Positions 32,291 through 36,666 of a stretch of DNA of 44,562 bases are shown here, piece by piece. Both the position numbers and the translations under genes were made by a program. The stretch covers positions 1 through 44,562 of the forward strand of contig JAITIC010000183.1 of NCBI GenBank assembly GCA_031279635.1, in the 5' to 3' direction. The first letter of the stretch is position 1; every line of letters starts with the position of its first letter. The DNA comes from Treponema sp. (lineage in GTDB: Bacteria > Spirochaetota > Spirochaetia > Treponematales > Breznakiellaceae). The notes beneath the pieces are model-generated. The model saw nothing but the letters and a program-made list of their open reading frames with translations. It made no database searches and was not told the DNA's origin.

Positions 32291-32449
32291 ACTTAACAAG
32301 TTTGACTTTTACGGGAGTATTAAAAGTTTTCAAATTTATACAGAACTGGATCTTGTAATACACAACAAGAAGGTTTTTAAGAGATAGAAAAAATAGGGAC
32401 AAGTATGATGTTCCAGGATAAAGATAATTAAACACATAAATGAGTAAAA

Positions 32450-33042
32450 CGAGGGGGATGTCCAGGAAGTTTGTTGCTTCCTGGACATCCCTCGCATTTG
32501 CTTCCGTTTCGTTGAAACGGTACGCAAATGCCGCACTAAAGAAGCTGTCCGAATAAGTTTTTCAAACTTTTCGGACAGCCCCAACCTTGAAATTCGCAGT
32601 TTTGCAAGGCTGAAAGCCTGAAAAACTGCAAGAGCCAGTCCCAAAACCGTGCGCGTTAGCGCACAGTCAAATAGTTTTGGGACAGGCTCAAACGAATTTA
32701 AATTAAGCAGGGCAGAGGGGCAAACTCGGAAAGGCTAAAAGGGTGAGATAAAATAACAAACAACAAAAATCGTTTTGGGCGGTTCACGAATTCAAGCCCC
32801 CGGCTTTGGGGTATTTGACAAATTTCCCCTCGAACGAGCCCCCGATCCGACACAACCCAACGCTAAAGATACCGTAGGGCTTGCCCCGCGGAGGCTCATC
32901 GGAAGGTTCTCCCCTATTATTTAGTATCTGTCCACAAAGTCGGTTACTTTGCGGACAGACAATGCATTTTCTCGCCTAACGGCTGCGAAAATGCGTTTTT
33001 TAAGGAAGTCTGTCCATAATGTGTCTACATTATGGACAGACT
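32450..33042. repeat. Array of hairpins in the intergenic region (at least eight)
   Basis: Stems at 32450-32494, 32494-32531, 32544-32579, 32596-32629, 32632-32689, 32927-32959, 32963-32995, 33007-33042; see finding. Confidence 0.8.
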
Positions 33043-33068
33043 CTATTTAGGGATAAGCCCTTAATCTG

Positions 33069-36381: not shown

Positions 36382-36578
36382 AGAAAACTCCTCCCAAATA
36401 TTTATAGATATTTTCAGTGTAGCGCATTGGACGGATTGCCGCAATAGCCGGAGGGGAAGGACCGGAATTCCGAATTCAACCGCAGACCGTCACAGACAGA
36501 ACGGGCAAAACCGGTATGATAGCATGTAAGCGCGGAAATTGCTCCCGGCTCCACTTTCCTCGTTTTCAGGCAAAAACA

Positions 36579-36610
36579 GGCTGTTCCAAAACTTCAGTTT
36601 TGGAACAGGC
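36579..36610. repeat. Isolated hairpin CTGTTCCAAAACT / AGTTTTGGAACAG
   Basis: 13-bp perfect inverted repeat (581-593 with 596-608), like the 32.5-33.0 kb array. Confidence 0.75.
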
Positions 36611-36666
36611 CCGTATGATAAATTATTCCCTTTGAAATTATAGGCACGCACAAGAGTGACGCAATG

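Follow-up and report, generated by a model that had tools for sequence, protein, structure and literature searches.

The window analysed here is a stretch of 44,562 nucleotides from a draft Treponema sp. genome (3.1 Mb, 276 contigs, 91% completeness) whose assembly breaks at the repeats described below. Broken IS5-type and IS630-type transposase genes lie at the left window end (357-910 and 1164-1922), and an intergenic region at about 32450-33042 carries a dense set of hairpins (Table 1). An earlier note on this DNA had described five hairpins with a common stem base and a variable tip (class 1) and three opening with GCA (class 2), arranged as one array of paired units. The five are where it placed them, with a 15-bp perfect stem core and 7-nt loop at 32455-32491, one mismatch and a 26-nt loop at 32632-32689, one mismatch at about 32927-32959, and further stems at 32544-32579 and 33007-33042, and the three class 2 hairpins also exist. 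The shared stem base held in part, the first hairpin having ATGTCC and not CTGTCC at its base. The units are not pairs of a class 1 and a class 2 hairpin, each instead having a central hairpin between two end hairpins; what had been read as one array resolves into three elements, with family II lying within family III and family I separate, 234 bp downstream.

The hairpins are genuine and well above chance expectation. Folding of the three units as single-stranded DNA gave z-scores of -11.2, -11.5 and -8.6, and none of 200 shuffles was equally stable. Further copies of the array units were confirmed, the pattern CTGTCC N8-38 GGACAG having 234 matches genome-wide (3.1 Mb) versus 11 for a reversed control pattern. 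Hairpins with a stem of at least 11 bp numbered 66 in 373 kb of the same genome, more than half of them derived from these families. Beside the neighbouring gene in the nearest relative (about 93% identical in that gene) the array is absent, which indicates that it represents insertions that have accumulated and not a conserved local feature, although the two genomes differ in synteny past that gene and the comparison is therefore not with an empty site in the strict sense.

Table 1. Repeat features of the window
Feature	Position	Strand	Basis
Left 4-bp target-site duplication AAAC, family III	32447..32450	.	Matches 32690-32693; 4-bp duplications in other copies
GAG, first three family III bases, sole remnant 5' of the replaced stem-loop	32451..32453	+	Intact copies read GAG-GCTTTCCCAAAACTTCAGTTTTGGGAAAGC-AACC
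Family II element, 129 bp, putative IS1182-type MITE, GGGGATGTCC...GGACAGCCCC, no target duplication	32454..32582	+	94-98% identical copies; IS1182 terminal repeat
Left end hairpin, family II	32455..32491	+	Perfect 15-bp stem, 7-nt loop
Central GCA hairpin, family II, homologous to subtype Ib (family I) hairpin	32494..32531	+	Alignment, folding
Right end hairpin, family II	32544..32579	+	Folding
Rest of family III element (left stem-loop apparently replaced by family II)	32583..32689	+	Intact-copy alignment; GGCTC end, then AAAC
Central GCA hairpin, family III	32596..32629	+	Folding
Right end hairpin, family III	32632..32689	+	Alignment of intact copies
Right 4-bp target-site duplication AAAC, family III	32690..32693	.	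Sequence
Degenerate family IV copy, stem-loop CCGTAGGGCTTGCCCCGCGG at 32872-32891	32820..32899	+	Same stem-loop is family II target elsewhere
Left 6-bp target-site duplication TATTTA, family I	32918..32923	.	Junction table
Family I element, 120 bp, likely ISNCY-type MITE	32924..33043	+	At least 39 further genome copies; boundaries, duplications
Left end hairpin, family I	~32926..32960	+	Folding, covariation
Central GCA hairpin, family I	32964..32994	+	Folding, covariation
Right end hairpin, family I, 16 bp perfect	33007..33042	+	Folding, covariation
Right 6-bp target-site duplication TATTTA, family I	33044..33049	.	Junction table
Solo family III-type hairpin	36577..36612	+	Genome hairpin scan; duplication not found at this copy

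Element families and related transposases

Element boundaries were set by aligning copies with their flanks and tabulating the junctions. On this basis we read the array as parts of three families of gene-less MITEs of 120-140 bp, which follow a common plan of an end hairpin, a central hairpin that starts with GCA and ends with TGC, and a second end hairpin. Family I measures 120 bp (subtype Ib, 130 bp), runs from GTGTCTGTCCACAAAGT to ACATTATGGACAGACTC and has TANNTA on each side; the flanking 6-mers were identical in 59 of 91 distinct copies from several genomes (shuffled mean 9.8, maximum 17). Family III, of about 140 bp (GAGGCTTTCCCAAAAC...GTTTTGGGACAGGCTC), had identical flanking 4-mers in 16 of 25 copies (shuffled mean 0.97, maximum 5). 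Target duplications were found at none of the nine family II copies.

BLAST of window pieces against the genome returned 39 or more additional copies of the right-hand unit (family I) and approximately 40 matches to the left-hand units, family II copies elsewhere in the genome being 94-98% identical. Many contigs of this assembly start or stop inside a family I copy (e.g., C36, C50, C123, C177, and C193), so the real copy number must exceed the count. Many other genomes of the family contain the same units. A genome assigned to another genus (G040; L174, L190, L210-L213) gave about 95 matches to the family I terminal repeat in forward and about 97 in reverse orientation, indicating that family I has spread across genera. 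Among the matches listed, the named records carrying the family I core were almost all Treponema or Spirochaetaceae MAGs, with isolate codes that we take to denote termite-gut samples. The core was found in none of the viral contigs searched. A literature search for Treponema REPs or MITEs gave nothing pertinent.

The IS1182 elements found in this genus carry GGGGCTGTCC at their ends; of nine ends examined, eight fold into a stem-loop. L150 encodes a complete IS1182 transposase of 529 aa (NF033551, E 9e-130) flanked by two GGGGCTGTCC end hairpins, and the IS1182 end GGGGCTGTCCAGGAAGTTG in L149 is identical over 17-19 nt to the family II copy L137:8821; the copy in the window differs from GGGGCTGTCCAGGAAGTTG by one base in the first 17. 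Family II shares with IS1182 both these terminal repeats and the duplication-free replacement of stem-loops considered below. For family I, an ISNCY transposase ORF (L201/L177) begins about 100 bp downstream of the terminal repeat (TAATTA followed by GTGTCTGTCTATAAAGT), which is also present near an ISNCY fragment in L172; L201 shows only one family I end at the ISNCY gene (contig edge), and no autonomous copy with family I ends was found in the draft genome of the window. L222, from a more distant relative, has an intact ISNCY element of 1,781 bp with TAGATA on both sides, in agreement with the TANNTA of family I. With its repeat beside an ISNCY transposase and a shared target duplication, family I is likely a MITE of ISNCY elements.

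An autonomous element with both matching ends was not found in the genome of the window (draft, 276 contigs, 91% completeness). Its PF01609 transposases were rejected as movers since their ends do not match, as were the IS5-type and IS630-type elements at the left window end; the IS5-type ends (GACACTGTYAGAAAAG) are, by eye, unlike all three families. A search with the family III terminal repeat in 20 relatives did not find a transposase for this family and returned only MITEs, solo hairpins, and one type of 420-bp element (G052). These elements of about 420 bp are numerous in G052 (L238, L267, L270, and L271), have GAGCCTGTTCCAAAAC as terminal repeat and 4-bp duplications, and are perhaps longer relatives of family III. 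In a single case (L268:836-1372, G060), an ORF that by eye resembles a Y1 transposase lies just within a GAGCCTGTTCCAAAAC repeat.

Insertion sites of family II

In the window, positions 32447-32693 read AAAC-GAG-(family II, 129 bp)-AACCTTGAAATT...GGCTC-AAAC, and intact family III copies read GAG-GCTTTCCCAAAACTTCAGTTTTGGGAAAGC-AACCTTGAAATT...GGCTC, with AACC directly after GCTTTCCCAAAACTTCAGTTTTGGGAAAGC. Comparison of the two places family II precisely where the left stem-loop of family III was, a replacement read from paralogous repeats and not from before and after states in one strain. The AAAC duplication of family III is intact at both flanks of the nested pair.

Three further family II copies (L088:6296, L137:8821, and L128:948) sit between AACGCTTAAGAYA and AGGCTCAT of a dispersed repeat, family IV. 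All 11 intact family IV copies in 893 kb of the same genome have exactly 20 nt between these sequences, namely CCGCGGAGCTTGCTCCGCGG or a close variant, which forms a stem-loop in nearly all 11, and the three copies that carry family II lack exactly this 20-nt stem-loop. Family IV, a frequent family II target, was also observed at L137:1545-1590 and L138:168. At a fifth site, family II copy L098:8164 replaces the 14-nt CAAGCTGCGCTTGC, a short stem-loop in intact paralogues, with a boundary that may be one base off. A stem-loop has thus been lost at five of the nine family II sites, including that in the window, and the remaining four have no recognised target. A second family II fragment, in L047, joins family III four bases inside the stem, a less exact fit. 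Another repeat of unclear nature, GTCTGGTTTAATACCCYAAGG-(CAAGC hairpin)-CAAGCTCTGCTCCGG, was noted at L128:814, L128:4222, L097:2027, and L096:3656, and a piece of it occurs in a relative (G024, L304).

Such insertion has been described for IS1272, a staphylococcal element of the IS1182 family with stem-loop ends, which takes a stem-loop of any sequence as its target and removes it on insertion without making a duplication (PMC5678879). We take the behaviour of family II to be this stem-loop-replacing insertion, here in a gene-less derivative. Unlike IS1272, family II is only 129 bp long, has no gene and has GGGGMTGTCCAGGAAGT as its terminal repeat, and end hairpins of other MITEs are among its targets.

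These could instead be ordinary MITEs that replace nothing, family II having been placed by homologous recombination or deletion and fitting exactly by chance. The many repeats in a draft assembly would allow for this, as would the four of nine family II flanks without a recognised target, but we consider it improbable: the boundaries coincide exactly with the stem at the window site and at three family IV sites, a small hairpin is fitted at the fifth, and the similarity at the II/III junctions is too small for recombination to have produced GAG/GGGG and CCCC/AACC. Insertion of this same kind is, moreover, what was reported for IS1272 (PMC5678879).

Stem covariation and solo hairpins

An alignment of family I (subtype Ib) with family II extends over the full length of both and includes a common core, GCATTTGCTCCCGTTT; the two are accordingly judged homologous. 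In the left stem, 6 of 16 pairs have changed on both sides between the two families. Across all stems, 12 double-changed pairs were observed versus 8.5 in shuffles, and 41 double-change cells versus 17.7, slid structures collapsing; within family I alone, 6 pairs were double-changed versus 1.5 in shuffles. The proposal that tip variation is compensated was thus borne out, pairing having been kept as sequence changed both within family I and between I and II, and the pattern of a constant base with a variable tip arises because these families are homologous with co-varying stems. Selection on the folded end and copying from arm to arm could each have kept the pairing.

Solo hairpins of 35-39 bp that have an element's outer ends and are bounded by a duplication on both sides were found for family I (n = 4) and family III (n = 11, versus a shuffled mean of 0.83). 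Examples of such bare, duplication-flanked hairpins are L119:11248-11282, L086:18490-18525, L137:2621-2659, and L128:3769-3806. They are possibly the smallest mobile units of the families, and may be either mobile as such or internal deletions of full elements.

Origin of the array and its wider meaning

We conclude, with a probability of roughly 0.86, that three MITEs (non-autonomous DNA transposons) make up the array, with one lying inside another, and that they are moved in trans by DDE transposases, family II by way of stem-loop replacement. Transposases of the IS1182 and ISNCY families would act in trans on the hairpin ends. With family II, the target stem-loop would be extruded and the transposase would join the element ends at its feet; the stem-loop sequence would then be lost, as proposed for IS1272. 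Each MITE would bring new stem-loops, so that elements could nest in each other and build arrays such as that at 32450-33042. The retained complementarity of the stems suggests a role in mobility for the folded end or for its copying.

The earlier suggestion of REP/BIME-like elements was correct insofar as these are non-autonomous mobile elements. Movement as single-stranded hairpins by RAYT, a Y1 transposase, is nevertheless very unlikely. The repeats are palindromic, intergenic, paired and numerous, as REP/BIME elements are, and the genome has three Y1_Tnp matches. None of these three genes adjoins the hairpins, however, which answers the call for a dedicated RAYT/TnpA_REP. The terminal repeats match DDE-type IS families, and the 6-bp (family I) and 4-bp (family III) target-site duplications are clear; to our knowledge, Y1 transposases make none. 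Least probable of all is a conserved structured RNA with regulatory or processing signals from this intergenic region, as also suggested before: the folds are very stable with compensating changes, but no Rfam family matched above its gathering score (the best hits were sub-threshold chance matches to microRNA hairpin models), the nearest relative lacks the array at this site, and the elements occur at many unrelated places with target duplications. The hairpins are likewise not terminators but parts of the MITEs.

As MITEs, these elements depart in form from their likely relatives. The ISNCY-type IS (NCBIfam NF033593) resemble family I in the TANNTA duplication (TAGATA, L222) and in the terminal repeat by the transposase gene (L201), but family I is gene-less, and its two ends are self-complementary, unlike the IS ends observed. 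Other short bacterial elements without genes, among them the RUP and Correia MITEs, have terminal inverted repeats and target duplications; the present elements differ in that their terminal repeats are hairpins in themselves, with a further hairpin between them.

Families I and II share a core and the left hairpin fold. A more speculative reading, which we hold only tentatively, is that stem-loops are the exchangeable unit of an element ecosystem, in which families I and II may have switched between two transposase families that differ in their target rules by changing only their end hairpins, a hairpin could act as a transposon end and as a target alike, and a duplication-flanked bare hairpin of 35-39 bp could be mobile alone. 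Stem-loop-replacing transposition has so far rested on one IS (IS1272) and few sites. With its many copies, its gene-less derivatives and the untouched duplication of the host element as an internal control, this clade makes a rule of "hairpin in, hairpin out" testable in bulk. Nested MITEs of this kind would explain dense hairpin arrays without any RNA function, and why the assemblies of these genomes break at hairpins.
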